Assembly (NCBI RefSeq): GCF_029589435.1
Contig: NZ_JARRAG010000002.1
Coordinates: 1,302,001-1,366,000 of the forward strand
Direction of reading: 5' to 3'
Origin: Paludisphaera mucosa
Lineage (GTDB): Bacteria > Planctomycetota > Planctomycetia > Isosphaerales > Isosphaeraceae
Length of the DNA: 64,000 nt
Position 1 is the stretch's first letter. The number at the start of each line of letters is the position of its first letter. Below are positions 35,003 through 43,657 of the stretch, piece by piece. The position numbers and the translations under genes were made by a program. The notes below the pieces were generated by a model. It saw only the letters and a list, made by a program, of their open reading frames with translations. It ran no database searches and was not told where the DNA came from.

Positions 35003-37309
35003 TCAGGACGTGAAGGGCTTGAAGATCAGCGAGAACTCGAAGAGGCCCTGTACGATGCTGCTCGAGGTCGGCTCGGCGTAGTTCACCGCGCCCCTCGGGT
35101 TCTGCTGGTCGCGGTTGAGCGACCAGATGGCCACCTGGCCGAGGCCCGTCTTGTCGGCGAACGCCAGGAGCTTGCGGGCGTCGTCCTGAGTGAAGGTCTC
35201 CGTGACGACGTCGTTCAGGCCGATCATCGGCGTGACGCCGATCATCGCCCAGATTTGGGCGTCGGTCGCCGCCGCGCCGAACAGGGGCCGGAGTTGGCCG
35301 AAGGTGGACGTGGCCGCCTGGATGGCGTAGTCGCCCATCCGTCCCCGGGGGGAGGGCGCCGCGCTATCGCCGTAGTCCATCGCCATGACGTTGACGCCGC
35401 CGAGCTTCACGCCGGCCTTGAGGGCCGACTGCACGACGTACAGCCCGTCGGGCGTCAGGCCGGTCGGGAGGACGGGCAGGGTGAACCAGACCTGCAGCGG
35501 CCGGCCCGCGGCCGCGAGGTCGCGCTGCAGGCCGGCCAGGGCCTGCGAGCGGCGGTCGACCGAGGCGCGGTCGGCGACGGCCGCGCCCTCGACGTCGAAG
35601 TCGGCGCGGGTCAGCCCGTAGGCGTCGACCACGGTCCGGTAGGCGGCCTTGAGGGCGTCGACGTCGGTGATCGACTGGGCCAACTCCGAGCCCGACGCGC
35701 CGCCGAACGAGACGGCGACGTCGCCTCCCATGCCCCGCAGCGCGTTGATCTGGGCGCGGGCGGCCATGTCGAACGCGCCGCCGTCGACGGCGGCGAAGCC
35801 GCCCCAGCTCGGGCGGCCCGCATCGGCCACGATGAACGCCAGGTTGAAGTACTTCAGCCCCTGGGACTTCGCCGCGGCGACCAGGTCGTAGGTCGGGTAG
35901 AGCCCCATGTCGACGTAGGGCGCGAACACGTGGGCCGGCCACGCGAGGTTCGAGACGGTCAGGGTCACGGTGGCCGTCGCCGTCGCGGCGCGGCCGTCGG
36001 AGATCGTGTAGGTGAAGGAATCGGGGCCGGTGAAGCCGGCGGCCGGGGTGTAGGTGATCGCGCCGTCGGCGCCCACGGCGGTCGTGCCGTGCCGTCCCTG
36101 GGCCGCGGCCGCGACCTTCAGGGGGTCGCCGTCGGCGTCCGCGTCGTTGGCCAGGACGGTCGTCGTCACGGGACGACCGGGCGCCGTCCACGCGGCGTCG
36201 TCGACCGCGACCGGCGCGTGGTTCACGGGGCCCCCGCCGCGGACGACGTAATTCGTCGGCCCCGCGGCCGGGTGGCCGGGGCTCGCGGTGAAGCCGAAGC
36301 TCGCCGACGCGCCGGGATCGACGCCGCCGTTGTACGAAGCGTTGGCGACGACGTAATGGTTCCCGACGTGCGAGACGACGACCGCGTCCCAGACCGAGGT
36401 CAAGGCCCCGGCGTAGTCGAACTCCAGCGTCCAGGCGGTCCAGGCGTTGCGGCCGCTGTTCCGCACGGTGATCCGGCCGTTGTAGCCGCCCCCCCAATCG
36501 TTCGTGACCTGGAACGAGAAGTCGCCCCCGGCCGGCGGAGGCGCGGGCGCGGCGTCGCGGATGACGCCCGCGCCGCGGGCCTTCGCCAGGGTCGCGCCGA
36601 CCGGGGCGGAGAGGGTCAGGCTGAGCGTCTCGTCGCCCTCGACGAGCGCGTCGGCCAGCACGGCGGTCGTCAGGGTCTTCGCGGTCTCGCCCGGGGCGAA
36701 CGTGAGCGTGCCCGAGGCCGCGACGTAGTCGGTCCCCGCGACGGCCGTGCCGTTGGACGTGGCGTAGCGGACGGTCGCCGCCGAGGCCGAGGGCGACGAG
36801 AGGCTCACGGTCCACGCGAGCGGGGTCGAGCCCGAAGACGGCTCGACGGCCGCGGCGTCGTCGACCCTGAGCGTCGGCGTCGCCGGAGGCGGCGCGGCGC
36901 CGTCGAGCGGGGCGCCGTTGAGGCGGTAGTTGGACGGGGCGGCCGTCGACCCGCCCGGACTCGCGATCAGGCCGAAGGCGACCGTCCCGCCCCCCGCCAG
37001 CGTGCCGTTCCAGCCCGCGCCGCGGATCACGTAGTGGGAGCCGACGTGGCTCACGACCTGCGCGTCCCAGATCTGAGTGATCCCGGCCGTGTAGTCGAAC
37101 TCGAGGACCCAGTCGGCGACGGCCGCCGACTGGCGGTTCGTGAGGGTGACGGTCGCCTGGAGCCCCGAGCCCCAGTCCTGCGTGACGGCGAAGGCCGCGG
37201 CGACGCCCGAGAGGACGGTCCGCACCTCCAGCGTCTCCTGGCTCGGCCGAGAGCCGCGCCTGCTCCGCCCACGCCGATTCCGGCCGTCGAATCCGAGGAA
37301 ACTCGTCAT
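35003..37309 (-). CDS. Modular extracellular GH18-type protein with two CBM2-like domains
   Basis: This 768-residue protein has no classical signal peptide but the planctomycete extracellular motif RPSQETLEVRTVLS at residues 21-34. Domains in order are CBM2-like (35-133; SHVGSHYVIRGAGWNGTL), Calx-beta-like (145-252), a second CBM2-like domain (262-358; SHVGNHYVVANASYNG), a cadherin/Big-type repeat (365-452; VLANDADADGDPLK, FTYTISDGRAATATATVTL) and a GH18-type barrel (458-768). The catalytic block is TRADFDVEG with Glu574 at the expected place. It probably binds cellulose or chitin and may cleave chitin-like polymers. The ATG follows AAGGA, and a strong hairpin lies just upstream in the leader. 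Confidence 0.9.
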   Translation of the reverse strand: MTSFLGFDGRNRRGRSRRGSRPSQETLEVRTVLSGVAAAFAVTQDWGSGLQATVTLTNRQSAAVADWVLEFDYTAGITQIWDAQVVSHVGSHYVIRGAGWNGTLAGGGTVAFGLIASPGGSTAAPSNYRLNGAPLDGAAPPPATPTLRVDDAAAVEPSSGSTPLAWTVSLSSPSASAATVRYATSNGTAVAGTDYVAASGTLTFAPGETAKTLTTAVLADALVEGDETLSLTLSAPVGATLAKARGAGVIRDAAPAPPPAGGDFSFQVTNDWGGGYNGRITVRNSGRNAWTAWTLEFDYAGALTSVWDAVVVSHVGNHYVVANASYNGGVDPGASASFGFTASPGHPAAGPTNYVVRGGGPVNHAPVAVDDAAWTAPGRPVTTTVLANDADADGDPLKVAAAAQGRHGTTAVGADGAITYTPAAGFTGPDSFTYTISDGRAATATATVTLTVSNLAWPAHVFAPYVDMGLYPTYDLVAAAKSQGLKYFNLAFIVADAGRPSWGGFAAVDGGAFDMAARAQINALRGMGGDVAVSFGGASGSELAQSITDVDALKAAYRTVVDAYGLTRADFDVEGAAVADRASVDRRSQALAGLQRDLAAAGRPLQVWFTLPVLPTGLTPDGLYVVQSALKAGVKLGGVNVMAMDYGDSAAPSPRGRMGDYAIQAATSTFGQLRPLFGAAATDAQIWAMIGVTPMIGLNDVVTETFTQDDARKLLAFADKTGLGQVAIWSLNRDQQNPRGAVNYAEPTSSSIVQGLFEFSLIFKPFTS

Positions 37310-37783
37310 GATGGTCCTTCGTAGGATACGATCGGCGCGACGTCGGGACGCCCCGACGCCTTCGCGCCGATCGGGGGACGCGGGGCCGTCGCGGCCCTCG
37401 CCCTCTCTCGCTGCTACGGCCTCGCAAGTTCGGCGGTTCGCCCGCGGCACGGGCCGGCCGGGCTCGTGGCTTTTTCGGATCGGAGCACGTCGTGATTCCG
37501 CAACGCCGGCCCCGCCGATGTGGCTTCGCGTCGAGCCTCGGCCCCGGGCGACTTCGGCGCGGTTTCGCCCGGGACTCATGCACAAGGCCGACGTCCCGCA
37601 CGCCGAAGTGCCGGTTCCGGCGTCATTCGCCCGCGGCGCCCGGGCCCCGCGTCCCGGCGAGTCTCCCGGGGTTCGACGCTTTGAACCCGTGGGGCCGTCG
37701 ACTACACTGGTCCCCGTGCCGCCGGCTCGTCGCGAGGCGAGGCGGGCGGCGGTGAGGTTCGATCCCGGGCGAGGGGGCCCCCG
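37310..37783. other. 474-base intergenic region between divergent genes
   Basis: The gap holds the leader and promoter of the leftward GH18-type gene and the promoter of the rightward creatininase gene. Apart from the strong hairpin at 37329-37373 I see nothing specific: no RNA gene, no convincing open frame and no repeat copy. Confidence 0.5.
37329..37373. promoter_or_regulatory. Strong hairpin in the leader of the GH18-type gene
   Basis: The left arm CGATCGGCGCG and right arm CGCGCCGATCG pair over 11 bases. Inside them CGTCGGG pairs with CCCGACG over 7 bases around a 4-base loop, with small internal bulges. It begins 20 bases before the ATG of the GH18-type gene, just beyond the AAGGA ribosome site. 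It could shield or expose the site, stabilise the message or act as an operator. Confidence 0.5.
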
Positions 37784-39813: not shown

Positions 39814-40109
39814 TCGACGCCGCCGTCGCGAATCGACCCTCTATGATTTTCGGACACGCGCCGAAAGTTCGGGGACGGCCCGCGTCCGGATGTCGCTCAA
39901 GATTTTAAGAGACCCGCCCCGCCCCAGGGGCGGTCGCATTCCCGGTCGTCGCACGACGACGCCCGGCCCGTTTTCGTCCACGCCCCGCGAGGATTGCGGG
40001 GCCCGTCGTCGATCCGTCCACGCCGCCCGCCGCGGCGAGGACGCGCCGTCGCGTTTATTTATTTATGAAGTTGTGATTTTATGATCACGACGCATTCGGA
40101 GGTCCGCGC

Positions 40110-40280
40110 ATGGAACCGCTTCTCGCCTACTTCGGCCCCGAGGTCCAGATGCCGCTCGCCTCGCTGCTGGCGTCGGTCGTCGGCATGCTGATGATCGCGG
40201 GCGCCGCGCCGGCGCGTGCGGCCCGGCGGTTGTGGGAGCGGGTGGGGGCGTCGAGCCTGCGTCGAGGCTCTCGCGATTGA
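40110..40280 (+). CDS. 56-residue membrane protein upstream of the sulfatase-fold enzyme
   Basis: An ATG with GGAGG 7 bases ahead opens MEPLLAYFGPEVQMPLASLL, then one membrane helix (ASVVGMLMIAGAA) and a basic tail ending RRGSRD. The helix-plus-basic-tail pattern means the tail should lie in the cytoplasm. Its stop is 13 bases before the sulfatase-fold gene, so the two are almost surely co-transcribed. The sequence before it is AT-rich (TTTATTTATTTATG) and probably holds the promoter. I recall similar GPE-containing small proteins in planctomycetes but cannot name a family. Function unknown; it may be a partner of the membrane enzyme. Confidence 0.72.
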   Translation: MEPLLAYFGPEVQMPLASLLASVVGMLMIAGAAPARAARRLWERVGASSLRRGSRD

Positions 40281-40293
40281 CGCCCCCCGGCCG

Positions 40294-42174
40294 ATGGTGG
40301 GGCGGGGCCGGTCGTCGCGGCTCCCGGCCGCCCTCGACGCCTTCCGCACGGCCCTCTGGTTCGGGCTGGCGGCCGGGTTCGTCGAGCTGCTCCTGCTGGT
40401 CCTCCGGGTGGAGGTCCAGGAGGGCGGGTTCATCCTGCGGAGCCGGCATTTCGTCTGGATGGTCCCGACGTCCGTCCTGATCCTGTTCGCGGCCGAAGGG
40501 GGCTTCGCGACGGCTCTCGTCGCGTGGGCGGGGCCGCGGGCGTCGGCCCGTCGCGCGGTCCTCGGGCTGTACGTCTTCACGGCGTTCCTGGGCTGGTTCC
40601 TGCTGGTCCGCGGGCTCGAGGCGGTCGCCTGCGGGCTGATCGCCCTGGGGTTCGCGGCGCGGGGGGCGCCGTGGCTCGACGCCCGCCGCGAGGGCCTGCG
40701 TCGGGTCGTCGATCGCAGCCTGCCGACGCTCGGCGTCGTCCTCGCGGGCCTGGCGGTCGCGAGCTTCGTCCGCGACGCCCGCGAGGCGTTTTGGCGGGAC
40801 GGCGACGTCGAGGAGGCCCCGAGCGACGTCCGCAACGTCCTGCTCGTCGTCCTCGACACGGTCCGCGCCGATCACCTGAGCCTGTACGGCTACGACCGCG
40901 AGACCACGCCCAACCTGGCGCGGCTGGCGCGGGAGTCGACGGTCTTCGACCAGGCCCGCGCGGCGGCCTCGTGGACCTTGCCGTCGCACGCCACCCTGTT
41001 CACCGGGCGATGGCCCGGCGAGCTGAGCGTGGAGCGGCGGGGATGGCTCGACGGGTCGGCCCCGACCGTGGCCGAGCGGTTCCGCGACGCCGGCTTCGCG
41101 ACGGCCGGATTCGTCGCCAACCCCTTCTTCTGCGGCCGGGGCTCGGGCCTGGCGCGAGGGTTCCAGGTCTACGCCGACTATCCGATCACGCCCGGCGAGG
41201 TCCTCCGCTCGTCGAGCCTGGGCTGGCTGCTGGCCCGGTCGTGGCTCCGGCTCAACGCCCGGATCGAGGCCCACGCGACCGCCGGCGCGGTCCGCGACGT
41301 CGACCTCGACTTCTCTCGCAAGGACGCCGCGGCGGTCTCGCGCGAGTTCCTCGGCTGGCTGGGGCGTAACGGCGGCCGGCCCTTCTTCGCCTTCCTGAAC
41401 CTCTTCGACGCCCACGACCCGTACATCCCGCCCCCGGGCTTCGATCTCCGGTTCGGCCGATCGTCGCGGCCCGACACGCCCCATCTGCTCCGCGACTGGC
41501 AGCGGGTGGACAAGGCGAAGCTGACCCCGGGCGACGTCCACGCCGCCCGCGACGCCTACGACGACTGCCTCGCGGCCCTCGACGCCCAGCTCGGCGACCT
41601 GATCGAATCCCTGCGCGCCCGGGGCGTCCTGGACCGGACCGTTTTGATCGTCACGGCCGACCACGGCGAGCAGTTCGGCGAGCACGGCGGGTTCGGCCAC
41701 GGCCTGAGCCTGTACGACGAGGAGGTCCGCGTCCCGCTCCTGATCCGCGCCCCCGGCCTGGTGCCCGCCGGCCGGGTGGAGCGCGACGACGTCAGCCTGC
41801 GCGACGTCGCCGCCACCGCGCTCGACCTCTCGGGGGTCCCCATCGAGATGCCCCCCCTGCCCGGCGACTCGCTCGCCGCCCGCCTGCGCGGGGAGGGCCC
41901 GGGCGTGATCTCCCCCGCCTTCTCCGAGCTGCTCGGGCCGGTCGATGAGCGCGTCGCGCGGCCGGCCGCCGCGGACGACCCGGCGTCGGGCCCGTGGGAG
42001 AGCGTCGTCGTCGACGGCCGGGTCTACATCCGCCGCGGCGATGGCCGCGAGTCGCTCTACGACCTGGCGACCGACCCGTCGGAGGCCCGGGACCGCAGCG
42101 ACGACCCCGCCCTGGCCGAGGCGCTGGAGGCCGGGCGACGGGCCGTGGATCAGCTGATCTCCGACACCCGCTGA
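40294..42174 (+). CDS. Membrane-anchored sulfatase-fold enzyme with threonine nucleophile
   Basis: This 626-residue protein has about four membrane helices in residues 18-160. A large alkaline phosphatase/sulfatase-superfamily domain follows. Metal and active-site blocks are LLVVLDTVRADHLSLYGY (Asp188), SWTLPSHATLFTG, FFAFLNLFDAHDPYIPP and VTADHGEQFGEHGG. At the nucleophile position stands Thr228 (WTLP) in place of the Cys or Ser that is turned to formylglycine in true sulfatases. Threonine is used by phosphotransferases such as LtaS. Transfer or hydrolysis of phospho-head groups is therefore at least as likely as sulfate ester cleavage. The 56-residue gene precedes it by 13 bases. Confidence 0.88.
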   Translation: MVGRGRSSRLPAALDAFRTALWFGLAAGFVELLLLVLRVEVQEGGFILRSRHFVWMVPTSVLILFAAEGGFATALVAWAGPRASARRAVLGLYVFTAFLGWFLLVRGLEAVACGLIALGFAARGAPWLDARREGLRRVVDRSLPTLGVVLAGLAVASFVRDAREAFWRDGDVEEAPSDVRNVLLVVLDTVRADHLSLYGYDRETTPNLARLARESTVFDQARAAASWTLPSHATLFTGRWPGELSVERRGWLDGSAPTVAERFRDAGFATAGFVANPFFCGRGSGLARGFQVYADYPITPGEVLRSSSLGWLLARSWLRLNARIEAHATAGAVRDVDLDFSRKDAAAVSREFLGWLGRNGGRPFFAFLNLFDAHDPYIPPPGFDLRFGRSSRPDTPHLLRDWQRVDKAKLTPGDVHAARDAYDDCLAALDAQLGDLIESLRARGVLDRTVLIVTADHGEQFGEHGGFGHGLSLYDEEVRVPLLIRAPGLVPAGRVERDDVSLRDVAATALDLSGVPIEMPPLPGDSLAARLRGEGPGVISPAFSELLGPVDERVARPAAADDPASGPWESVVVDGRVYIRRGDGRESLYDLATDPSEARDRSDDPALAEALEAGRRAVDQLISDTR

Positions 42175-42943: not shown

Positions 42944-43657
42944 TCACGCCTTGCCGGAAGGCTGGACGTCCGTGCCGGCGGGGTCGTCCTGGTCGTCGTG
43001 GGGGTGGGCGTCGACGTCGTCGGACGCCTTCCGGCGTTCGATGTAAAGGCGGAGGTTCGCGGCGTCCTCCACCGCGTCGTGCGCGGGGGCGTCGTCTTCG
43101 GCCTCGCGCACGGGCTCGTCGAGGGCCTCGTCGGCCTCGAACGTCGTCGGGGGCGGGCGCCAGCGAGCCCGCCGGATGGCCCGGACGATCGTGTAGTGGT
43201 TGATCGCCCGGTAGGTGAACCAGAAGCCGACGACGTTCGGCCCCGGCAAGAGCCAGAGGGCCAGGCCGGTCACCGGGGCGAGGATCCCGTCGACGATCAG
43301 CCAGAACAGGTGGGTGCTCGCCCGGGCCGTGAGGTAGCGCTTCCAGGCCGAGCGGGCCTTCTTCTCGGGCATCGAGGCGGGGTGGCGGATCGCGATCGAC
43401 TCGGCCGTGCCCAGCCGCGTGAGCAGGGGCTCGTCGGGCCGGCTCCAGGTGTGCAGCCAGTCCCAGAGCCGCCGCGACGACCTGGCCGCGACCCCCTCGG
43501 CCCCCTTCCAGCGGGCCTCCAGGTCGTTCCACTTGCGCCCGGCCCAGCCCCAGGCGCCCGTCGGCCGCGTCGACTCGTCGGCCGCCGCCGCGACCTCGGA
43601 CGGTTCGGCGTAGAAGAACGGGCGGCCTTGCTCGTGCTTGAGGTAGAGGATCTTCAC
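42944..43657 (-). CDS. Possible mitochondrial K+/H+ exchange-related (KHE1-like) protein
   Basis: This 237-residue protein opens MKILYLKHEQGRPFFYAEP from a GTG start. A helical basic region follows, then EPLLTRLGTAESIAIRHPAS, and a hydrophobic hairpin that includes LIVDGILAPVTGLALWL and LPGPNVVGFWFTYRAINHY. The tail is acidic. The PGPN...YRAxxH pattern recalls the family of yeast mitochondrial potassium/proton exchange proteins, which has planctomycete members as far as I remember. This is a recall-based suggestion, not a search result. It could instead be an unnamed planctomycete membrane protein. It probably forms an operon with the exonuclease/phosphatase-fold gene. Confidence 0.55.
   Translation of the reverse strand: MKILYLKHEQGRPFFYAEPSEVAAAADESTRPTGAWGWAGRKWNDLEARWKGAEGVAARSSRRLWDWLHTWSRPDEPLLTRLGTAESIAIRHPASMPEKKARSAWKRYLTARASTHLFWLIVDGILAPVTGLALWLLPGPNVVGFWFTYRAINHYTIVRAIRRARWRPPPTTFEADEALDEPVREAEDDAPAHDAVEDAANLRLYIERRKASDDVDAHPHDDQDDPAGTDVQPSGKA

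Follow-up and report, generated by a model that had tools for sequence, protein, structure and literature searches.

The window, by which we mean the whole stretch of 64,000 nucleotides of Paludisphaera mucosa DNA that was analysed, carries on its forward strand a small gene (40110 to 40280) for a 56-residue membrane protein with a single helix, predicted to lie with its N terminus outside and its C terminus inside. A GGAGG ribosome-binding site at 40098 to 40102 stands 7 bases 5' of its ATG at 40110. The stop at 40280 is followed after 13 bases by the ATG (40294) of a 626-residue membrane enzyme of the PF00884 fold, encoded on the same strand at 40294 to 42174 (E value of 5.8e-40; 137.9 bits against a cut-off of 25), and in these 13 bases a Shine-Dalgarno-like stretch was looked for and none was seen. 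An earlier note on this DNA had described a missed small gene with a strong ribosome site 13 bases before a 626-residue enzyme, and this description holds. On the reverse strand, the window also encodes a surface-type protein with CBM_2 (two stretches), Calx-beta and cadherin-like domains at 35006 to 37336 and, at 42944 to 43657, a PF10173 (mitochondrial K+-H+ exchange-related) protein that scores above the cut-off; PF10173 relatives (cluster c17) adjoin the locus of the small gene and enzyme elsewhere in the genus.

The small gene and its protein family

The 56-residue frame is a real gene. It lies directly 5' of the enzyme orthologue in five of the six genus genomes and is therefore not a chance frame; the gaps are 13, 19, 5, -8 and 22 bases, as given by our own codon-usage gene calls, in which some starts are late. 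Absence of the small frame in relatives, which the earlier note had put forward as evidence against its own reading, was looked for and did not refute that reading. The sixth genome (G003) offers no closer relative of the enzyme than one at 46%, and its single small gene is an unlinked copy. Values of pN/pS for the small gene were 0.30 to 0.40 among the four closest orthologues and 0.55 to 0.72 against two more distant ones, while orphan copies of the gene evolve less tightly (0.31 to 0.84).

When 59 genomes were searched with the single sequence, matches at an E value of 0.01 or lower came from 29 of the 37 Isosphaeraceae genomes. A hidden Markov model (HMM) built from 54 matches and run over the 136 regions around small-protein and enzyme matches detected 59 copies, all scoring at least 49.0 bits, whereas the best remaining match reached 10.9. 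When the 37 Isosphaeraceae genomes were searched in full by HMM with a 41-row alignment, 59 copies in 29 genomes were again returned, and this count is therefore independent of a start from the enzymes. Tyr7, Pro10, Pro15 and Ser18, which fall within the motif AYFGPEVQMPLAS (residues 6 to 18 of the window protein), are invariant in all 59 copies, and Ala21 and Gly25 are kept in 55 and 58 of them. We refer to these proteins as the AYFGPET family; the window protein has the four invariant residues, the one helix and the basic C-terminal side. Lys and Arg average 0.07 up to the end of the motif versus 5.88 in the 22 residues past the helix, with an excess on the C-terminal side in every one of the 59 copies, and the predicted topology is accordingly N outside and C inside. 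The A21xxxG25 spacing may be of the kind used in helix packing. An AF2 model of the small protein built on 13 sequences (pLDDT of 71; pTM of 0.36) has a helix at residues 10 to 30 and a basic helix at 32 to 51.

The window protein has no match in Pfam or NCBIfam, nor have four further family members, one of which gave NCBIfam rows at E values of 0.13 and 0.34 that we regard as noise. Searches of the PMC literature yielded no paper for "YIGPGAG" or "YFGPET" and none on Paludisphaera with phosphoethanolamine. As judged from these literature searches and the scans of five members, the family is undescribed. Matches of the small-protein profile to the ErbB-2 transmembrane segment in a PDB search (E value of 0.018) were judged to be due to chance.

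The enzyme: catalytic site and class

Enzyme relatives were collected at E values of 1e-60 or lower (122 rows). The enzyme contains WTLPSHATLFTG, in which T is residue 228 (codon 40975 to 40977), the predicted nucleophile. Thr228, His232 and His374 are kept in 122/122 relatives; Asp188 and the predicted metal ligands Asp456, His457 and His469 of a DHGE...H segment (41659 to 41700) are each kept in 121, the other row having a gap. Cys or Ser, as expected of formylglycine sulfatases, occurs at the nucleophile position in none of the 122. The earlier note had read this position as Thr rather than Cys/Ser and had asked whether the enzyme might group with Cys/Ser sulfatases; the first was confirmed throughout the family and the second was not seen. 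The motif is TLPSH and not TXNXE. In PMC5066984, formylglycine formation from Thr is described as never having been shown, Thr is present in 30 of the 59 PF00884 seed sequences, and the SulfAtlas authors advise that Thr-bearing (TXNXE) PF00884 proteins not be called sulfatases without proof. The presence of Thr in all 122 relatives argues against a formylglycine sulfatase, and we rejected assignment as an ordinary sulfatase.

An AF2 model of the enzyme built on 11 sequences (pLDDT of 76 and pTM of 0.79, with residues 461 to 469, including His469, at a pLDDT under 50) predicts a membrane part of five helices in residues 9 to 170 (40318 to 40803), at 9 to 41, 53 to 79, 83 to 102, 110 to 130 and 132 to 170. 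The four helices of the earlier note, a number also given by a hydropathy scan, must accordingly be revised to five on this prediction. Across the 122 rows, the two inside loops carry 2.98 Lys/Arg in 10.2 residues and 4.21 in 18.0, while the outside stretches carry 2.98 in 19.4, 0.57 in 7.8 and 2.57 in 17.3; the number per residue is higher in both inside loops. This charge pattern fits a predicted N terminus inside and catalytic domain outside.

LtaS and the EptA-MCR enzymes, which transfer phosphoglycerol and phosphoethanolamine, have five N-terminal helices, an outside AlkP-fold domain, a Thr nucleophile and a D-H...H metal pattern. The predicted layout of the window enzyme would be the same, and its predicted Thr nucleophile and Asp/His ligands, equated with those of the known LtaS/EptA enzymes, are kept in 121 or 122 of the 122 relatives. 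Nevertheless, the window enzyme lies far below the cut-off of the phosphoethanolamine transferase domain model (NCBIfam NF028537; 46.6 bits against 500), no other transferase model among those listed reaches its NCBIfam cut-off, and no LtaS model is present among the best 25 of the 29 NCBIfam rows for the enzyme. The likeness to LtaS-type enzymes proposed earlier thus stands as regards the predicted five-helix layout with an outside AlkP domain and not as regards assignment by any listed transferase model. We know of no small partner of the AYFGPET kind in LtaS or EptA-MCR systems.

The best solved-structure matches by sequence and by fold are sulfatases and phosphonate monoester hydrolases, with 4uph and 4upi among the sequence matches. 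In the fold comparison, sulfatases came first (Z up to 36.4), phosphonate hydrolases scored 31.9 to 33.1, and an LtaS/EptA chain was absent among the 50 fold matches listed, which excludes nothing. The catalytic folds of 4uph, 2vqr and 4upl (phosphonate monoester hydrolases and formylglycine sulfatases; Z of 33.1, 31.9 and 36.4) are among the closest to that of the window enzyme, but those proteins are not known to have membrane helices and form formylglycine from Cys or Ser where the window enzyme has Thr. PbgA/YejM (6xlp) aligned with nearly the whole model, helices included (Z of 31.6 over a 467-residue span, at an rmsd of 19.4). Unlike YejM, which is taken as regulatory, the window enzyme family keeps its catalytic residues in 121 or 122 of 122 rows. 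On these models, the window enzyme would have the layout of LtaS, EptA and PbgA with a complete Thr site, but would fall outside those curated families. Its probable activity at the envelope is the transfer or hydrolysis of phospho-groups; phosphotransfer is plausible, and hydrolase and transferase are indistinguishable here.

The Thr-type membrane enzyme family is much expanded in some Isosphaeraceae, with at least 17 matches in G009; as up to 21 of the best candidates per genome were scored, copy numbers may be undercounts.

Genes adjoining the small gene

The gene that follows the small gene was examined for all 59 copies. It is a same-strand PF00884-type gene of the window enzyme family in 24 cases and a same-strand PF01663-type gene, of two subtypes, in 23; the remainder comprise nine other genes on the opposite strand, two other genes on the same strand and one contig edge. 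The earlier note had supposed a private partner, but the small protein is not private to the enzyme, since a PF01663-type gene comes next in 23 of the 59 cases. A single orphan copy, found in a common setting in all six genus genomes, accounts for six of the nine opposite-strand cases. Of the two same-strand others, that at L141 is in fact a piece of an enzyme gene truncated by the contig end. At the other (L191, 445 to 6543), the small gene heads a co-directional run of a PMT_2 glycosyltransferase, a methyltransferase, a GT2 gene and a window-family enzyme, a hint of envelope glycan or lipid modification. A same-strand AlkP-type gene just 5' of the small gene was found in only 2/59 cases. Chance adjacency should be rare, because there are only 28 PF00884 matches above the cut-off in the 8.2 Mb of the window's genome.

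Viewed from the enzymes, the association is looser. Among 124 enzyme genes or fragments, the small gene is immediately 5' in 24 and within the co-directional upstream run in 37, and strict pairing with every enzyme, which the earlier note had proposed to check, was rejected; 61 of the other upstream runs are without it and 26 end at a contig or locus edge. By our own gene calls, some other pairs of small gene and enzyme are separated by gaps of several hundred bases. The neighbours of the enzyme family are mixed and no single pathway stands out. One run (L102, 2420 to 12073) has three PF01663-type genes, an acyl-carrier-like gene (PF00550 at an E value of 0.0098, below its cut-off) and a small membrane gene, followed by two window-family enzymes, and looks like one pathway. 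At three further loci, window-family enzymes adjoin epimerase/NmrA-like genes, assigned by Pfam at L075 and by similar N termini only at L078 and L153.

A tree of the 59 small proteins clusters them by partner: it requires 15 changes of partner label, compared with a mean of 26.7 for shuffled labels, and none of 200 shuffles was as low as 15. With 48 columns, this tree is too short to establish that the copies arose only once or to place the root of the split.

A fused counterpart on PF01663 enzymes

A search for PF01663 relatives in 199 genomes of the phylum gave matches in 85 at 1e-30, the window's own included, and from the 84 others 29 loci of other families, one per genome, were available for examination. 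In 27 of the 29, the catalytic domain is preceded in frame by (A/G/T)Y(I/V)GPGAG, then by a helix of hydrophobic residues and a basic stretch; in the other two (L216 and L219) the fused segment was not seen. These type I phosphodiesterase-like proteins of other planctomycetes carry the equivalent of the small protein in one chain with an AlkP-superfamily enzyme, as a membrane segment at its N-terminal side, whereas in the Isosphaeraceae the segment is a separate gene. The 29 main PF01663 orthologues of the Isosphaeraceae begin directly at the catalytic domain, with a YIGPGAG segment ahead of it in 0/29, and 20 of them have the small gene within 1.5 kb 5' on the same strand. The nine without an adjoining small gene are those of the six genus genomes, G016, G033 and G026, the last at a contig end. 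In the six genus genomes, no small gene lies within 1.5 kb of the PF01663 orthologue and an unlinked copy is present elsewhere. In one assembly (G009), a second PF01663 copy with a fused YIGPGAG segment (L275) is present beside the split one elsewhere in the assembly; it may be foreign, because the assembly has an estimated contamination of 9%.

Comparison of the small-protein family with the YIGPGAG module by hhalign gave a probability of 76.5 and a score of 26.1 over 28 columns, and a wider alignment lowered the probability to 54. The score was not reached by shuffled controls, the best of which were 19.0 for full shuffles (0/150) and 22.1 for half-wise shuffles (0/150). The likeness of the two profiles therefore exceeds that of shuffled controls, by which we judged homology. 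Scans of three fused proteins found the YIGPGAG module without a Pfam or NCBIfam entry.

Co-occurrence and spread

The enzyme family is present in 30 of the 37 Isosphaeraceae genomes (E value of 1e-60), the PF01663 orthologue in 29 (1e-100) and the small protein in 29, and at these thresholds all three are absent from the same seven genomes (P of 7.8e-7, a statistic that ignores kinship). Both mismatches are located at the end of a contig: in G012 the small gene is followed by a PF01663 fragment, and in G026 only 331 bases of contig remain 5' of the PF01663 gene. In two genera (G028/G011 and G035/G023), all three are present in one genome and missing from another.

An HMM search for the small protein across 294 genomes of the phylum, in which the best 20 candidates of each were scored and distant ones may have escaped, pointed to three genomes outside the Isosphaeraceae. 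Two of these matches (G172 and G109) look like chance, since the frames shown there contain no small gene that matches. The third genome (G305), of another family of the same class, has a small gene scoring 53.4 bits and then, opening 64 bases past its stop, the frame of a Thr-type enzyme (WTLPSHASMFTG; 32% identical to the window enzyme over 374 residues), inside which the locus (L210) ends. The pair is therefore not confined to the Isosphaeraceae.

Discussion

Our results lead us to favour, with modest confidence, the view that the small protein is a split-off single-pass membrane anchor or subunit of AlkP-superfamily enzymes that has been re-used by a five-helix enzyme with a Thr nucleophile. 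The starting point would be the arrangement of other planctomycete families, in which AYIGPGAG, a helix and basic residues are fused ahead of a PF01663 enzyme. In the Isosphaeraceae, this segment would have become a separate gene, usually just 5' of a PF01663 enzyme that lacks it, the direction presumably being from fused to split. Copies of the small gene may then have been duplicated and re-used by five-helix Thr-nucleophile PF00884 enzymes, including that of the window. Translation of the small gene and the enzyme may be coupled. The small protein would most likely reside in the inner membrane beside the enzyme helices, as a lasting subunit, with its YxxP...P..S segment outside and near the active domain; contact with the enzyme would perhaps be made through the A21xxxG25 face of the helix and this outside segment. 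The enzyme itself would form a phospho-threonine intermediate and may act, by transfer or hydrolysis, on a phosphate ester in a lipid or glycan of the envelope. Against a subunit stand the facts that most enzymes of the family have no small gene nearby, with none in 61 of the 124 runs, that the PF01663 orthologues of the six genus genomes, G016 and G033 are not accompanied by one, that the orphan copies are less tightly conserved, and that the match to the YIGPGAG profile covers only 28 columns at a moderate probability (54 to 76.5%). The subunit model is weakest, and also most interesting, as regards topology: the PF01663 domain is predicted to be cytoplasmic and the PF00884 domain outside, and hence, if the same subunit serves both, its contact would lie mainly in the membrane.

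As to the reaction, a serious alternative, if not the one we would choose first, is that the window enzyme is a hydrolase and not a transferase, and would cleave scavenged or envelope esters as a phosphodiesterase or phosphatase. Its best solved-structure matches, being sulfatases and phosphonate monoester hydrolases, are in keeping with hydrolysis, whereas the five-helix anchor resembles the known layout of LtaS, EptA and PbgA, and the L191 run, although from one genome, suggests envelope glycan building because it joins the small gene and the enzyme with PMT_2, methyltransferase and GT2 genes.

The nearest rival to a lasting subunit is a transient helper. It is possible, although we think it unlikely, that the small protein is a chaperone for the membrane insertion or folding of AlkP-type enzymes: the small gene is found just 5' of two AlkP classes, is unlinked from the PF01663 gene in the window's genus and is not beside every enzyme gene, all of which would suit a helper. 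We favour a structural part because the equivalent module is fused to the enzyme elsewhere, and the fused form keeps the module on the enzyme. We are similarly doubtful that the resemblance between the small protein and the YIGPGAG segment is convergent, arising from two unrelated short membrane segments. Only 28 columns are aligned, with the range of probabilities given above, and short membrane profiles can match unrelated helices, as the ErbB-2 match illustrates; nevertheless, the two segments are placed alike with respect to one and the same orthologous enzyme and 0/300 column shuffles reach the score. Still less probable, and in our view very unlikely, is that the small frame is translated only as a leader, to couple translation of the enzyme, and that its peptide has no function of its own. 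The strong ribosome site of the small gene with none visible for the enzyme, the 13-base gap and the 8-base overlap in one orthologue are what such a leader would predict, but residues are conserved over 59 copies, the orphan copy without an enzyme behind it occurs in six of six genus genomes, an equivalent segment is fused in 27/29 loci, and some other pairs are several hundred bases apart by our gene calls. Finally, an ordinary formylglycine-dependent sulfatase, as the PF00884 match and the leading place of sulfatases in the sequence and fold lists might imply, is close to refuted by the Thr found in 122/122 relatives and by the statement in PMC5066984 that no formation of formylglycine from Thr has ever been demonstrated.

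The anchor or subunit that we favour would allow a more speculative and rather unlikely extension, in which one interchangeable membrane subunit serves enzymes at both faces of the inner membrane, a PF01663 phosphodiesterase in the cytoplasm and Thr-type PF00884 phosphotransferases outside, in an envelope phospho-modification system, mainly of the Isosphaeraceae, that was born by splitting and duplication.

Small proteins of the membrane readily escape both gene callers and family libraries. The AYFGPET family can be tied to a clear class of partners and to a fused form, and its role is therefore directly testable. Its anchor module is seen both fused and separate, and with two enzyme classes, and the family would give a handle on the function of the Thr-type "sulfatases" of planctomycetes.
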